DNA of 64,000 bases from Streptomyces graminofaciens. Lineage in GTDB: Bacteria; Actinomycetota; Actinomycetes; Streptomycetales; Streptomycetaceae. The stretch lies in contig NZ_AP018448.1 in the NCBI RefSeq assembly GCF_030294945.1, positions 9,706,501 through 9,770,500 of the forward strand, in the 5' to 3' direction. The position numbers were made by a program, and so were the translations under genes. Below the pieces are notes generated by a model. The model was given only the letters and a program-made list of their open reading frames with translations. It did no database searches and was not told the DNA's origin. Below, piece by piece: positions 28,926 through 32,938 of the stretch (positions within the stretch are counted from its first letter, which is position 1; the number at the start of each line of letters is the position of its first letter).

Positions 28926-28938
28926 TAGAGTCATTCTC
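28926..28938 (+). promoter_or_regulatory. Candidate promoter of the Y-RNA array
   Basis: TAGAGT at 28926-28931 fits a -10 box, with TTCGCC at 28901-28906 as a weak -35 (19-bp spacing). A start 7-8 bases after the -10 falls on 28938-28939, exactly where the first base of the terminal stem of Y-RNA-like module 1 begins. Confidence 0.5.
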
Positions 28939-29076
28939 GTCCAGGTGCGAAGGCAGGACCTACTTCCACTGATAATGGGGCGGTCGCGGGTTCGAGTCCC
29001 GCCACCGGTACAACTTGCCGGTGTAGCTCAGGGGTTAGAGCACCTACGTCGGTTCCGCCGGCTTCGATCTCTGGAC
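28939..29076 (+). ncRNA. Y-RNA-like module 1 with a circularly permuted class I tRNA-like domain
   Basis: Terminal stem GTCCAGG (28939-28945) pairs with TCTGGAC (29070-29076). An internal loop (TGCGAA against GGCTTCGATC) leads to a 9-bp helix GGCAGGACC (28952-28960)/GGTTCCGCC (29051-29059) with one A-C mismatch. The distal part reads as tRNA halves in reverse order: T arm GCGGG-TTCGAGT-CCCGC (28986-29002), acceptor 3' strand CACCGGT, linker ACAACTT, acceptor 5' strand GCCGGTG, TA, then D arm GCTC-AGGGGTTA-GAGC (29026-29041). The anticodon-stem equivalent is weak. The layout resembles bacterial YrlA RNAs, which carry tRNA-mimicking modules and bind Ro60/Rsr, encoded just downstream. Confidence 0.85.
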
Positions 29077-29089
29077 ACCCAAAACTTCA

Positions 29090-29172
29090 TGCACCTCCCG
29101 GTGCGCCGGCTGCGGCTACTTCTTCTCCCAAAAGAATTCGATGCCGCCGCCGACTTGATCTCGGGAGGCGCA
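29090..29172 (+). ncRNA. Y-RNA-like module 2 with a simple hairpin
   Basis: Terminal stem TGCACCTCCCGG (29090-29101) pairs with TCGGGAGGCGCA (29161-29172), with one mismatch. The internal loop is TGCGCC against GACTTGATC. The helix GGCTGCGGC (29108-29116)/GCCGCCGCC (29143-29151) has its single mismatch at the same fourth position as in modules 1 and 3. The end is a small TTCTT...AAGAA hairpin instead of a tRNA-like domain. Its 3' strand can pair alternatively with 29342-29354. Confidence 0.7.
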
Positions 29173-29354
29173 GCATATGGTGGGTGCCCGGTGCGCAGGC
29201 AGCGGATACTTCGGGAACTGGTGGGGATTGCTCCTCATGCGGGTTCGAATCCCGTCATCGACCTCTGGTCGATGTGGCGGAACGGAAGACGCGCCAGTTA
29301 TAAGCAACCGTCGCCGACTTCGACCTCGGGCGCCCTCCTTTTGCTGCGCCTCCC
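29163..29354 (+). ncRNA. Y-RNA-like module 3 with a circularly permuted tRNA-Leu-like domain
   Basis: Inner terminal stem GGTGGGTGCCCGG (29179-29191)/TCGGGCGCCCTCC (29326-29338) can be extended outward, past a 3x3 loop, by a perfect 13-bp helix 29163-29175/29342-29354. The internal loop (TGCGCA against GACTTCGACC) and the helix GGCAGCGG/CCGTCGCC repeat the module plan. The tRNA-like part is complete but permuted: anticodon-stem strands AACTGG (29216-29221) and CCAGTT (29294-29299), 5-bp variable arm GGGGA-TTGC-TCCTC, T arm 29239-29255 with TTCGAAT loop, 7-bp acceptor stem CATCGAC (29256-29262)/GTCGATG (29268-29274) joined by CTCTG, and 3-bp D stem GCG/CGC. TTTT after the inner stem could end transcription. 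Confidence 0.85.
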
Positions 29355-29388
29355 TCCGAAGCAATCATTCCATGCACGAAGTGCTGGC

Positions 29389-29404
29389 GAATTCGGGGGA
29401 ATTC
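29389..29404 (+). promoter_or_regulatory. Hairpin GAATTC-GGGG-GAATTC holding the rsr ribosome binding site
   Basis: A 6-bp stem with the purine-rich GGGG in the loop, ending 3 bases before the ATG at 29408. It could modulate translation initiation of rsr. Confidence 0.5.
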
Positions 29405-29407
29405 ATC

Positions 29408-30991
29408 ATGGCGCGATTCAACACCAAGGCAACCAAGGCGCAGCCCACGTCGCGAGTGACGTCGACGGGGCGGGTGCTCCGTACCTTCGAGGGCGGCCGT
29501 GGCCGTGAGCGGGACGAGCGTTCCGAGCTGTTCCTGCTGTCGATCGCCAACTTCGTCGCGCAGAAGACCTTCTACGAGAGCGGCGAGGACCGGGACGACC
29601 GGTTCGCCGCGCTCGTCCGGCTGCTCGCCGTCACCGACCCGACGTGGACGGCCGGTCTGCTCGCCTGGCTGCGCGGCGAGGGCAACCTCCGTACGGCCTC
29701 GATCGTGGGCGCCGCCGAGTATGTGAAGGCGCGGCTCGACGCGGGAGCGACTGATGGCCCTTCGAACAGGCAGGTCGTGGACTCCGTGCTGCGGCGCCCC
29801 GACGAGCCCGGCGAGCTGCTCGCGTACTGGACCTCGCGTTACGGCCGTAACATCCCCAAGCCCGTGAAGCGGGGCGTGGCCGACGCCGTACGCCGCCTCT
29901 ACAGCGCGAAGTCGCTGCTGAAGTACGACACGGCATCCAAGGGCTACCGCTTCGGCGACATTCTCAACCTGGTGCACGCCGCGCCGGACCCGACCAAGCC
30001 GTGGCAGGGCGACCTCTTCCAGTACGCGCTCGACCGGCGGCACAACCCGGACACGGCCGTCGTACCCAAGTCGCTGCCCGTGCTCGCGGCCCACCGGGAC
30101 CTGATGGCGCTGCGGCCCGCCAAGCGGCGCAGGGTCGTGGCCGGTGCGCAGGGCGCGCGGCGGCTCGCGGACGCGGGGATCACCTGGGAGGCGCTGGCGG
30201 GCTGGCTGCAGGGCCCGATGGACAAGGCGGCCTGGGAGGCCGTCATCCCGTCCATGGGCGCGATGGCACTGGTGCGCAACCTGCGGAACTTCGACGAGGC
30301 GGGTGTCTCGGACGAGGTCGCGGCGCAGGTGGCGGCCAGGATCAGCGACCCGGCCGAGGTCGCGCGCTCGCGGCAGTTCCCGTTCCGCTATCTCTCCGCG
30401 TACCAGCACGCGCCCTCGCTGCGCTGGGCGTACCCGCTGGAGCAGGCGCTCGGCCACTCGCTGGCCAATGTGCCCGCGCTGCCCGGCCGGACCCTGGTCC
30501 TGGTCGACCGCTCGGGCTCGATGTTCTACTCGAAGCTGTCCGACCGCTCGTCGCTCAGGTACGCCGACGCGGCGGCGATCTTCGGTACGGCGCTCGCGCT
30601 GCGGGCGGCGAACGCGGATCTCGTCGAGTTCGGGAGCACCAGCAAGCCGGTGGAGTTCCGCAAGGGCGAGTCGGTGCTGAAGATCATCGGCCGCTTCGGG
30701 GACCTGGGCGGCACCGACACCACCGAGGCCGTCCGCCGGCACTACCGGAAGCACGACCGGGTGCTGATCGTCACCGACGAGCAGGCCACGTACAGCCACT
30801 ACGGCGACCCGACCCGGCAGGTGCCGGACGACGTACCGGTCTACACCTGGAACCTCGCCGGGTACCGGGCGGGCCACGGCCCCTCGGGCAAGGCGAACCG
30901 TCACACCTTCGGCGGGCTCTCGGACGCGGCCTTCCGGATGGTTCCGCTGCTGGAGGCGGCGCGGGACGCCGACTGGCCGTGGGCCGTCTGA
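29408..30991 (+). CDS. rsr: Ro60 orthologue, TROVE-domain RNA-binding protein
   Basis: A 527-residue protein. Residues 1-345 form the TROVE/HEAT ring (TSRVTSTGRVLRTFEGGRGRERDERSELFLLSIANFVAQKTFYESG..., LLAWLRGEGNLRTASIVGAAEYVKARL), which binds Y RNAs on its outside and misfolded RNA ends in its hole. Residues 350-527 are a von Willebrand A-type domain with MIDAS motif TLVLVDRSGSMFYSK. ATG 29408 is preferred: upstream in-frame codons lie inside the Y-RNA structures. In bacteria with Rsr, Y RNA tethers it to exoribonuclease PNPase for structured-RNA decay; a similar role here is inferred from the adjacent RNA array. Confidence 0.93.
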   Translation: MARFNTKATKAQPTSRVTSTGRVLRTFEGGRGRERDERSELFLLSIANFVAQKTFYESGEDRDDRFAALVRLLAVTDPTWTAGLLAWLRGEGNLRTASIVGAAEYVKARLDAGATDGPSNRQVVDSVLRRPDEPGELLAYWTSRYGRNIPKPVKRGVADAVRRLYSAKSLLKYDTASKGYRFGDILNLVHAAPDPTKPWQGDLFQYALDRRHNPDTAVVPKSLPVLAAHRDLMALRPAKRRRVVAGAQGARRLADAGITWEALAGWLQGPMDKAAWEAVIPSMGAMALVRNLRNFDEAGVSDEVAAQVAARISDPAEVARSRQFPFRYLSAYQHAPSLRWAYPLEQALGHSLANVPALPGRTLVLVDRSGSMFYSKLSDRSSLRYADAAAIFGTALALRAANADLVEFGSTSKPVEFRKGESVLKIIGRFGDLGGTDTTEAVRRHYRKHDRVLIVTDEQATYSHYGDPTRQVPDDVPVYTWNLAGYRAGHGPSGKANRHTFGGLSDAAFRMVPLLEAARDADWPWAV

Positions 30992-31079: not shown

Positions 31080-31892
31080 ATGGAGCCCATACGACCCGTC
31101 GGCCGCACCCTGCTCAGGGATCAGGCCTACCTCGCCATCAGGGACGCCATCGTGACCGGCGAGATCGAGCCCGGGGCGGTGGTGCGGGACGCCGAGTTCG
31201 CGGAGCTGCTCGGGCTGTCCCGGGCGCCGGTGCGGGAGGCGTTCTCGCGGCTCGTCGACGAGGGGCTGCTGGAGAGCAAGCCGCAGAGCTACACGCGGGT
31301 CACGGCCGTCGTGGCCGCCGATGTCCGGGACGCCGCCGCCGTGGTCGGCGCCATGCACGAGCTGGCCACCCGGGTCGCGGTGCCCCGGCTGTTCGCGGCG
31401 GACGTCGAGACGATGCGCTCGGCCAACGGGCGGTTCGCGGCGGCCGTCCGCGCGGGCGACGTCGACGCCGCCCTGGTCGCCGACGACGAGCTGCACGACG
31501 TCCTCGTCCGGGTGAGCGGCAACCGCGCGGCCGCCGCCACCGTCGCCCGCTACACCCCGCTCATCCGCCGCCTGGAGAGGCGCCGCTTCGGTGAGGGCGG
31601 CAACTGCCGTTCGGCCGGCCTGCACGAACAGTTGATCGAGGCCTGCGCGGCCGGTGACGTGGACGAGGCGGTCCGGGTCACGGCGGAGATCTGGCGCGGA
31701 TTGGCGGCACTCGCCGACGGATCCGACGCCGAAGGGCGTGTCGCCGACGAGCGTGTCGCCGCAGGGCGTGACGCCGACGAACGTGACGCCGACGAACGTG
31801 ACGCCGACGAGCGTGACGCCGGCGAACCTGACGTCGCCGCGCTCGCCGATGCGCCCGAAGCCGTTGCCCCCGGCGGCCGAGCCGACCACTGA
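31080..31892 (+). CDS. GntR-family (FCD) transcriptional regulator with an acidic repeat tail
   Basis: A 270-residue regulator. Residues 8-75 form the winged helix ([54 protein letters not shown]), followed by the helical FCD ligand domain (residues 85-215, with [13 protein letters not shown]). The C-terminal 50 residues are an unusual repeat tail ([17 protein letters not shown]) encoded by 15-bp tandem DNA repeats. It lies 26 bp upstream of acdS and is the likely regulator of that gene. The promoter region TCTAACATTTCAGTTATG has TAACAT about 8 nt before the start, so the transcript may be short-leader. Confidence 0.88.
31737..31826 (+). repeat. Six 15-bp tandem repeats inside the GntR gene
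   Basis: Units of the form CGTGACGCCGACGAA at 31737, 31752, 31767, 31782, 31797 and 31812. Units 3-5 are nearly identical; the outer units are diverged. Each adds five residues (RDADE) to the C-terminus. Confidence 0.9.
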
Positions 31893-31918: not shown

Positions 31919-32938
31919 GTGTCTCTTTCGTCCTTCGAGCGCTACCCCCTCCTCTTCGGGCCCTCACCGGTCCACCCGCTGGAGCGCCTGACCGCCCACC
32001 TCGGCGGCGCCTCCCTCTGGGCCAAGCGCGAGGACTGCAACTCCGGTATCGCGTACGGCGGCAACAAGACCCGCAAGCTGGAGTACCTCGTCGCCGACGC
32101 GCTCGCCCAGGGTTGCGACACCCTCGTCTCCATCGGCGGTGTGCAGTCCAACCACACCCGCCAGGTCGCCGCCGTCGCCGCCCGTGCCGGGCTCAAGTGC
32201 GTGCTCGTACAGGAGAGTTGGGTCGAGTGGCCCGACGCCGTGTACGACAAGGTCGGCAACATCCTGATCAGCCGGCTGGCCGGTGCCGAGGTGCGACTCG
32301 TCCAGGCCGGCTTCGACATCGGCTTCAAGGAGAGCTGGGACCTGGCGCTCAGGGAGGTCGAGGAGAGCGGCGGCAAGCCGTACGCCATCCCGGCCGGAGC
32401 CTCCGACCACCCCCTCGGCGGCCTCGGCTTCGCCGGCTGGGCGTACGAAGTGGCCGAGCAGGAGCGGGAGTTGGGCGTCTTCTTCGACACGGTGATCGTG
32501 TGCTCGGTGACCGGCTCGACCCAGGCCGGTATGGTCGCCGGCTTCGCCGCGCTGGAGGAGGCGGGCGGACGGCCGCGCCGGGTCCTCGGCATCGACGCCT
32601 CGGCGAAGCCGGCCCCCACCCGCGAGCAGATCGCCCGCATCGCGCAGAACACCGGTCAACTCATCGGGCTCAAGCGGGACTTGACCGTGGCCGACGTCGA
32701 GTTGGACGAGCGCTATCACGGGGGGATCTACGGCGTCCCGGACGACGCCACCCTCGTGGCCATGCAGCTCGCCGCGCGCACCGAAGGCATGATCACCGAC
32801 CCCGTGTACGAGGGGAAGTCGATGGCCGGGATGGTCGACCTGGTCGAGCGCGGCGAGATCGGGCGGGAGTCCACCGTGCTCTACGCCCACCTCGGCGGAC
32901 AGCCCGCGCTGAACGCGTACAGCGGGGTGATCCAGTGA
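31919..32938 (+). CDS. acdS: 1-aminocyclopropane-1-carboxylate (ACC) deaminase
   Basis: A 339-residue PLP enzyme that opens ACC, the plant ethylene precursor, to alpha-ketobutyrate and ammonia. The PLP Lys is in [13 protein letters not shown] (about residue 50), followed by [18 protein letters not shown] and the phosphate-binding [18 protein letters not shown] and LYAHLGG near residues 295 and 322 fit ACC deaminases rather than D-cysteine desulfhydrases, which share the fold. GTG start. Downstream of and probably controlled by the adjacent GntR protein. ACC deaminase is typical of plant-associated bacteria. Confidence 0.88.

Follow-up and report, generated by a model that had tools for sequence, protein, structure and literature searches.

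To our knowledge, there is no settled answer to the question of why bacterial Y RNAs imitate tRNA. The question is raised by a locus of Streptomyces graminofaciens in which three foldable units (28939-29338, forward strand) sit between a PhoX gene and rsr; coordinates are those of the window, i.e. the whole stretch of 64,000 nt that was analysed (contig NZ_AP018448.1, positions 9,706,501 to 9,770,500). In this one organism, a common scaffold would carry three different heads, of which one would be an entire tRNA complete with its anticodon arm. What do these units share, how far do their heads imitate tRNA, and what could such a set do beside a single rsr?

The rsr leader and its repeated scaffold

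The rsr gene (29408..30991, + strand) codes for a Ro60/TROVE protein of 527 aa (PF05731 TROVE, 51.4 bits, cut-off 23), related to the TROVE entries 9KOP and 9L5Y of the PDB (E 9e-28). The units in its leader, all on the + strand and 6-13 nt apart, lie at 28939..29076 (unit 1), 29090..29172 (unit 2) and 29179..29338 (unit 3). They adjoin a Ro60/TROVE gene and possess a conserved basal stem with internal loops, two features by which bacterial Y RNAs are recognised. The places of the units and their common register agree with those given in an earlier reading made from the sequence alone. Downstream of rsr, the window harbors a GntR/FCD regulator (31080-31892), followed 3' by an ORF (31919-32938) which, from its translation, we take to resemble an ACC deaminase.

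The comparative set consisted of the best 80 of 269 named rsr relatives, the nearest of which are Streptomyces. All three units were matched by pattern in 61 of these 80 loci, which supports, for Streptomyces, the proposed arrangement of several differently headed Y RNAs next to a single rsr. Unit 1 is missing by pattern in 16 loci, among them one that cannot be judged with its 292 nt of upstream sequence (L048); two loci have no pattern match for unit 2 and one has none for unit 3, the respective unit being reduced there when inspected by eye. Apparent four-unit arrays obtained with a loose pattern in five loci (L025, L032, L029, L052 and L065, at about -581) are false, the extra matches lying inside the PhoX gene.

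Structures were counted on alignments drawn from the window sequence or, for the class I variant of unit 3 described below, from the locus L007. The alignments hold 72 of 76 distinct rows for unit 1 (four, cut short by the end pattern, were dropped), 79 of 113 for unit 2 and 76 of 106 for unit 3. At the related loci, 97-99.7% of the pair cells are standard, versus 30-57% in slid controls, and each of the four unit alignments contains 5-20 pairs changed on both sides, so that the compensatory changes whose absence would have spoken against the units are present in all of them. In single-sequence folding against shuffles, unit 2 has a z of -4.5, unit 1 of -1.8 and unit 3 of -2.1; since the advantage over shuffles is only moderate for units 1 and 3, the argument for the units is based on covariation. 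Comparative sequence analysis thereby confirms the presence of three predicted Y-RNA units upstream of rsr.

The alignments define a scaffold made of a lower stem with an invariant G-U pair, internal loops of the TGCG/CTTGATC type, an upper helix and a UMCUUC element. The lower stem closes in the G-U pair in every row (72/72 for unit 1, 79/79 for unit 2, 31/31 and 45/45 for the two alignments of unit 3), as expected from the terminal G-T pair seen in the window, and this holds for all 227 rows; the 5' loop, read earlier as TGCG, starts with these letters in 225 of them. The motif U(A/C)CUUC (TACTTC or TCCTTC), absent from the sequence-only reading, follows the upper helix in 227/227 units. The mismatch that had been placed always at the fourth position of the upper helix stands in the three units of the window, but across the homologous units the fourth pair is non-standard in only 193 of 227 (three of the 193 being gap or ambiguous cells). 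The lower stem may outlive the rest of the RNA: it is retained in the reduced unit 3 of two loci (L024 and L068), where head and upper helix have been lost, and in the reduced copies of unit 2, with no more than a short loop besides it, found in 10 of the 80 named loci (eight by pattern, L010 and L059 by eye).

A predicted promoter -10 box, TAGAGT (28926..28931, + strand), is a conserved hexamer ahead of unit 1. Among 87 fetched unit-1 loci, a count that leaves out the window and includes some genomes twice from two collections, a TANNNT hexamer lies 5' of unit 1 in 87, takes the form TAGAGT, TAAAGT, TACAGT or TATAGT in 81, and stands exactly 7 nt before unit 1 in 85. Because of this fixed distance, unit 1 probably begins at the transcription start, which is predicted at its first base, G28939. 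At the other end of the leader, a Shine-Dalgarno (SD) motif precedes rsr in 78 of the 80 named loci, and single-sequence folds predict a hairpin, CCTCCGAA/TTCGGGGG, over the rsr ribosome-binding site (29353..29399, + strand).

Three kinds of head

The alignment of unit 1 is 99.7% paired over 72 rows, with 8 pairs changed on both sides (slid controls 30-48%), and covariation covers both its lower stem (28939-28945/29070-29076) and its upper helix (28952-28960/29051-29059). All elements of the head lie on the + strand, in the order anticodon arm, variable loop, T arm, acceptor 3' strand, short loop, acceptor 5' strand, UA, D arm and A26. The anticodon arm (28964..28980; UUCCA-CUGAUAA-UGGGG, with 5 bp and a 7-nt loop containing U33, A37 and A38) is also supported by covariation; it is followed by a variable loop of 5 nt (28981-28985), the T arm GCGGG-TTCGAGT-CCCGC (28986..29002, helix 4 of the alignment), the acceptor stem CACCGGT - ACAACTT - GCCGGTG with its short closing loop (29003..29023, 3 pairs changed on both sides), the D arm GCTC..GAGC (29026..29041), whose helix is invariant in the alignment, and A26 (29042). 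The tRNA is therefore opened between tRNA positions 26 and 27 and not in the anticodon loop. The reversed tRNA halves with acceptor, T and D arms that had been recognised in units 1 and 3 are confirmed, while the description of unit 1 as class I-like was right but incomplete: as judged from the alignments, its head comprises an entire permuted tRNA in which the anticodon arm is preserved and the opening point is another one.

The anticodon stem is 100% paired in these rows, with changes from C-G to G-C in four rows, from A-U to G-C in one and from U-G to U-A in one, so that two of its pairs have changed on both sides. U33 and A38 are present in 71/71 seven-nucleotide loops, a single row having a loop of six, and the anticodon triplet varies. 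Beyond this set, 44 further matches of the unit-1 model were taken from 30 chosen loci (other actinobacterial families, less similar or second Streptomyces loci, a Rhodococcus plasmid and Nonomuraea). A 5-bp stem at the exact tRNA spacing is found in 24 of them (2.2% in shuffles), a fraction that is biased upwards because the model itself contains the anticodon arm; at the same spacing, eight of the 44 have four pairs (15.6% in shuffles) and 12 have three or fewer. The 24 five-bp arms represent 11 stem combinations, 17 of them lie outside the genus of the window, and they carry U33 in 24/24 and A38 in 23/24 cases, neither base having played a part in picking the stems. As a whole, the 44 matches are 96.7% paired, with 28 pairs changed on both sides, in an alignment fitted to the model.

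Once their halves are re-ordered, 72/72 unit 1 heads pass as tRNA in ARAGORN, versus 0/720 fully shuffled copies and 3/72 rows left in genome order. Since 687 of 720 re-ordered copies with a shuffled anticodon arm also pass, this test supports only the rest of the cloverleaf and not the arm. A t6A37 reading of the loop (U36, A37) was dropped, U36 being found in 71/71 Streptomyces loops but in 7/24 elsewhere. Derivation of head 1 from one particular tRNA is likewise unsupported: its best match reaches 70%, within the range of tRNA-to-tRNA identities (median 64%), in a partial set of 24 tRNA records with none for Leu or Ser.

The head of unit 3, supported by covariation on 29183-29334, is opened in the anticodon loop as in YrlA, with the anticodon stem stacked on the Y stem. 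In the window it is a class II permuted tRNA that we take to be Leu-like, a name given from general knowledge as the comparison holds no tRNA-Leu gene. The 3' strand of its anticodon stem, AACTGG (29216..29221, + strand), pairs with CCAGTT (29294-29299), and this stem is 89% paired in the class II rows with 3 pairs changed on both sides. The long variable arm described earlier (29222..29237, + strand; TGGGG/CCTCA) is borne out by changes on both sides at 4 of its 5 pairs. The class II rows are 97.0% paired overall with 11 pairs changed on both sides. Among the 24 tRNA records used for head 1, again with no Leu or Ser, this head is closest to tRNA-Asp (62%), and there is a weak match to tRNA-Sec (21.8 bits versus 47).

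The same place is occupied by two head classes among the 84 scored loci (L038 being left out): a Leu-like D arm (GGCGGAA..GACGC) is present in 47 and a class I D arm (TAGCTCA..TAGAGC) in 37. The variable region has at least 20 nt in 36 of the 47 Leu-like heads versus none of the 37 class I heads. The class I rows are 97.6% paired with 20 pairs changed on both sides, in an alignment that includes two loci with a Leu-like D arm (L016 and L033). Mapped on an rsr tree with 87 rows, unit 3 switches class at least 19 times, versus 9 changes for the presence of unit 1 and 7 for the reduction of unit 2; the tree was built by a quick method and has 21 weak forks, and the 19 changes stand without a shuffled-label baseline and count a recombined allele as a change. 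By either route, change or recombination, the sequences point to frequent head exchange at unit 3. A class I unit 3 accompanies 15 of the 18 loci that lack unit 1, but a test on independent pairs gives a median p of 0.125, and a link between the loss of unit 1 and a class I unit 3 is suggestive only.

Unit 2, supported by covariation on 29092-29168, has a small hairpin as head and no permuted module of T arm, acceptor and D arm; it is 98.2% paired in 79 rows, with 5 pairs changed on both sides. The 3' strand of its lower stem overlaps the 5' strand of a further helix, which was missed by the sequence-only reading and which we call helix B: GGGAGGCGCAGC (29163..29174, + strand) pairs over 12 bp with GCTGCGCCTCCC (29343..29354, + strand), beyond unit 3. 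As helix B and the lower stem of unit 2 use the same strand, they are mutually exclusive. The MFE fold of the entire leader contains helix B, and compensated variants occur (GCGCGAC/GTCGCGC and GCGCGGC/GCCGCGC), as do rows with mismatches (e.g., L028 and L072). The mean duplex energy of 89 distinct own pairs was equalled in 0/300 permutations, a score that could in part come from the relatedness of the loci; the gain is modest, with an own mean of -23.7 over 107 loci versus -21.1 for mixed partners. The role of helix B most likely lies in the processing of the leader or in a feedback of Rsr on its own mRNA, both of which are speculative.

Association with rsr and occurrence beyond the locus

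Of 51 genomes with a strong rsr, 46 contain full-length matches of the unit-1 model (E<=1e-6), as does one of the 49 others (100 genomes, own included), in a hand tally from two tables in which some matches lie away from rsr. In the one exception (G069), two unit-1-type matches lie no more than about 1 kb from a divergent TROVE-like match, and the five rsr genomes without a match have other Y-like units upstream of rsr when inspected by eye (L114, L116, L124, L126 and L129). The comparison of these sequences thus establishes a shared scaffold, three predicted head types and their co-occurrence with rsr. Full-length matches extend to several other actinobacterial families, and some loci contain two or three consecutively. 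At a threshold of 1e-7, 65 of 394 genomes of the class match the model, some of these matches being tRNA junctions, and a TROVE match is present in the fetched stretch for 26 of 29 class-wide loci (L205-L233).

Some individual loci deserve mention. The layout recurs on a Rhodococcus rhodochrous plasmid (L185, NZ_CP027560.1): two model matches, with a third Y-like unit between them by eye, lie directly upstream of a TROVE gene, and one of the matches has an Asn-like anticodon loop. In another genome (L158, G088), a long array of tRNA genes some 2 kb upstream of rsr has a Y RNA embedded in it, whose 5-bp anticodon arm is perfectly paired. A match at L159 (R1, 52.8 bits) lies among tRNA fragments and may be false. 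Eleven loci (L148-L155, L157, L161 and L162) harbor unit-1-type RNAs for which the surrounding 5-6 kb that were read contain no TROVE match; at L148-L150 the Y RNAs are followed by a terminator-like hairpin, as seen by eye. The Y RNAs of L148-L153, L161 and L162 have tRNA heads, that of L148 with a Glu-like D arm and that of L162 presumably Ser-like. Moreover, ARAGORN calls tRNA-Asp or tRNA-Glu genes inside Y RNAs at L148 (3107-3184), L153 (3039-3108) and L154 (3055-3126), which is likely a source of wrong tRNA annotation. YrlA-like RNAs also follow a gene annotated as RNA-binding protein in Mycobacterium phage Whirlwind (L183), where the head has no clear anticodon arm, and at further phage loci (L188-L204); R1 matches (E<=0.01) were obtained in 11 of the 16 phage loci searched. 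The phage gene was considered as a TROVE candidate, but Pfam reads it as DUF2828/DUF7788 and the phages are therefore not used as support.

Proposed function of the array and its relatives among known RNAs

We consider it very probable that the rsr leader consists of three paralogous Y RNAs arranged in tandem behind one promoter, whose heads would serve as adaptors for one Rsr ring. By analogy with YrlA, where the scaffold holds Rsr and the head engages a partner such as PNPase, three heads would mean three adaptors. From what is known of Y RNAs, each scaffold would bind Rsr and each head would recruit or imitate a different partner: unit 1 would display an entire tRNA, its anticodon arm folded; unit 3 would display the body of a tRNA, class I-like or Leu-like, that lacks the anticodon loop; and unit 2 would display a small hairpin. 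In the simplest mechanism, these alternative adaptors would tether the Rsr ring to PNPase, for RYPER-like decay, and to tRNA-handling proteins.

The layout of the leader itself invites another explanation, namely that the structures mainly riboregulate rsr, with helix B and the SD hairpin acting as a switch and no trans-acting RNA being released. The short distances between the units, the conservation of helix B and its exclusion of the unit 2 stem, and the SD hairpin in the folds would all fit such a cis-acting leader. It is nevertheless unlikely in view of the eleven loci whose unit-1-type RNAs have no TROVE match nearby, three of them with the terminator-like hairpin, and of heads that retain full tRNA features for which a cis switch has no need. 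Far less credible still is the idea that the units have no function and are either tRNA genes in decay or captured junctions between tRNA genes. The junction of tandem tRNA genes does have the arm order of the unit 1 head: in the genome of S. graminofaciens itself (G000:C1:8742645-8742723; L141 1475-1627), the junction of two tRNA-Asn genes 5 nt apart matches positions 26-104 of the unit-1 model with 54.7 bits, so that the arrangement can arise by junction capture. Of 61 same-genus genomes, 55 show a match confined to positions 26-104, whether or not they have rsr, and only that of the own genome was identified as tRNA-Asn. These matches stop short of the scaffold, whereas the units show compensatory changes throughout and an invariant enclosing scaffold; among 22 same-genus genomes without a strong rsr, 16 have a 26-104 match but no full-length one and six have neither. 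The identity of head 1 to its best tRNA match, no higher than that between tRNAs (in the partial set), also speaks against a remnant.

A narrower doubt concerns the anticodon hairpin of unit 1, which might be a mere extension of the loop in a head that opens in the anticodon loop as YrlA does, with positions 39-43 pairing to the CCU after A26. The CC after the D arm is conserved, one locus (L123) fits both pairings, and RF02553 closes the head of unit 1 by such a 3-bp pairing, one pair of it non-standard. The double changes at columns 30-40 and 31-39, on the other hand, fit the hairpin alone, and the five-bp arms with U33 and A38 kept in 24 of 44 other Y RNAs, in 11 stem combinations, point the same way even if the model favours such matches; we therefore regard the loop extension as improbable. 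The preferred reading of the array as a set of adaptors could be carried further, tentatively and with considerable doubt: actinobacterial Y RNAs may form a modular display of interchangeable imitations of tRNA classes to Rsr, among them complete tRNAs that include the anticodon arm, and in this display helix B would couple the occupancy of unit 2 by Rsr to the translation of rsr. The turnover of the heads would follow from a role as decoy or sensor, directed at enzymes by which the anticodon arms of tRNAs are attacked or repaired (anticodon nucleases, toxins and repair enzymes), which, if true, would place the locus in an arms race. In any case, the array gives a genetic handle on the imitation of tRNA by Y RNAs, as close species of these soil bacteria differ in head class at one place and so offer natural swaps with which to test which tRNA feature matters.

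At curated thresholds no Rfam family matches in the window, where ARAGORN finds 0 tRNA genes. The proposed search with the YrlA family (RF02553) left all units below the gathering score of 69 (35.6 bits for unit 1 and 17.3 bits for unit 3), and this score was reached in 0/61 genomes; at its cut-off, the family fails to detect the Y RNAs in those actinobacteria that were searched. In the open-licence literature searched, which did not include the papers defining YrlA, no account turned up of Y RNAs in Streptomyces, of a Y RNA that has an anticodon arm or is opened at 26/27, of a Leu-like head, of head exchange or of helix B. It is already known, however, that a Y RNA can contain a permuted tRNA and that Y RNAs can stand in tandem.

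Permuted tRNA genes and tandem tRNA junctions share with unit 1 the order 3' half, spacer, 5' half, with the breakpoint between D and anticodon arms, but here the head sits inside a Y scaffold, its anticodon is unconserved and there is no sign of decoding use. Vertebrate Y RNAs resemble the units in their two helices separated by internal loops, and their Ro-binding letters GGUCCGAAGG and CUUGAC resemble GGTGCGAAGG and CTTGATC; they have no tRNA head, and the likeness is one of layout and letters. YrlB is the simple Y RNA of the Salmonella pair. In its layout, like the simple Y RNAs (YrlB and the Y RNA of Deinococcus), unit 2 has a Y stem and a non-tRNA head and, as in Salmonella, stands in tandem with a tRNA-like one; the difference lies in the three units and their place upstream of rsr, the Salmonella order being rsr-yrlBA-rtcBA according to PMC7790460. 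The closest relative is YrlA, which according to the literature imitates tRNA by circular permutation (Salmonella YrlA, PDB 6CU1; PMC11472068, PMC8394870), binds both Rsr and PNPase, is a substrate for modification by DusA and by TruB (PMC8394870), and takes part in the Rsr-Y RNA-PNPase assembly RYPER (reviewed in PMC8394870). It too is a Y RNA beside rsr with permuted T, acceptor and D arms, a module present in units 1 and 3. RF02553 aligns over its full length (1-114) to some unit-3 places of the relatives, with up to 58.4 bits, but covers only 24-84 on unit 1 of the window and in most unit 1 places of the relatives. Its printed consensus is without an anticodon hairpin and closes the head via the anticodon stem, whereas unit 1 keeps the arm and opens between 26 and 27, and unit 3 of the window differs from YrlA by its class II body with a long variable arm.
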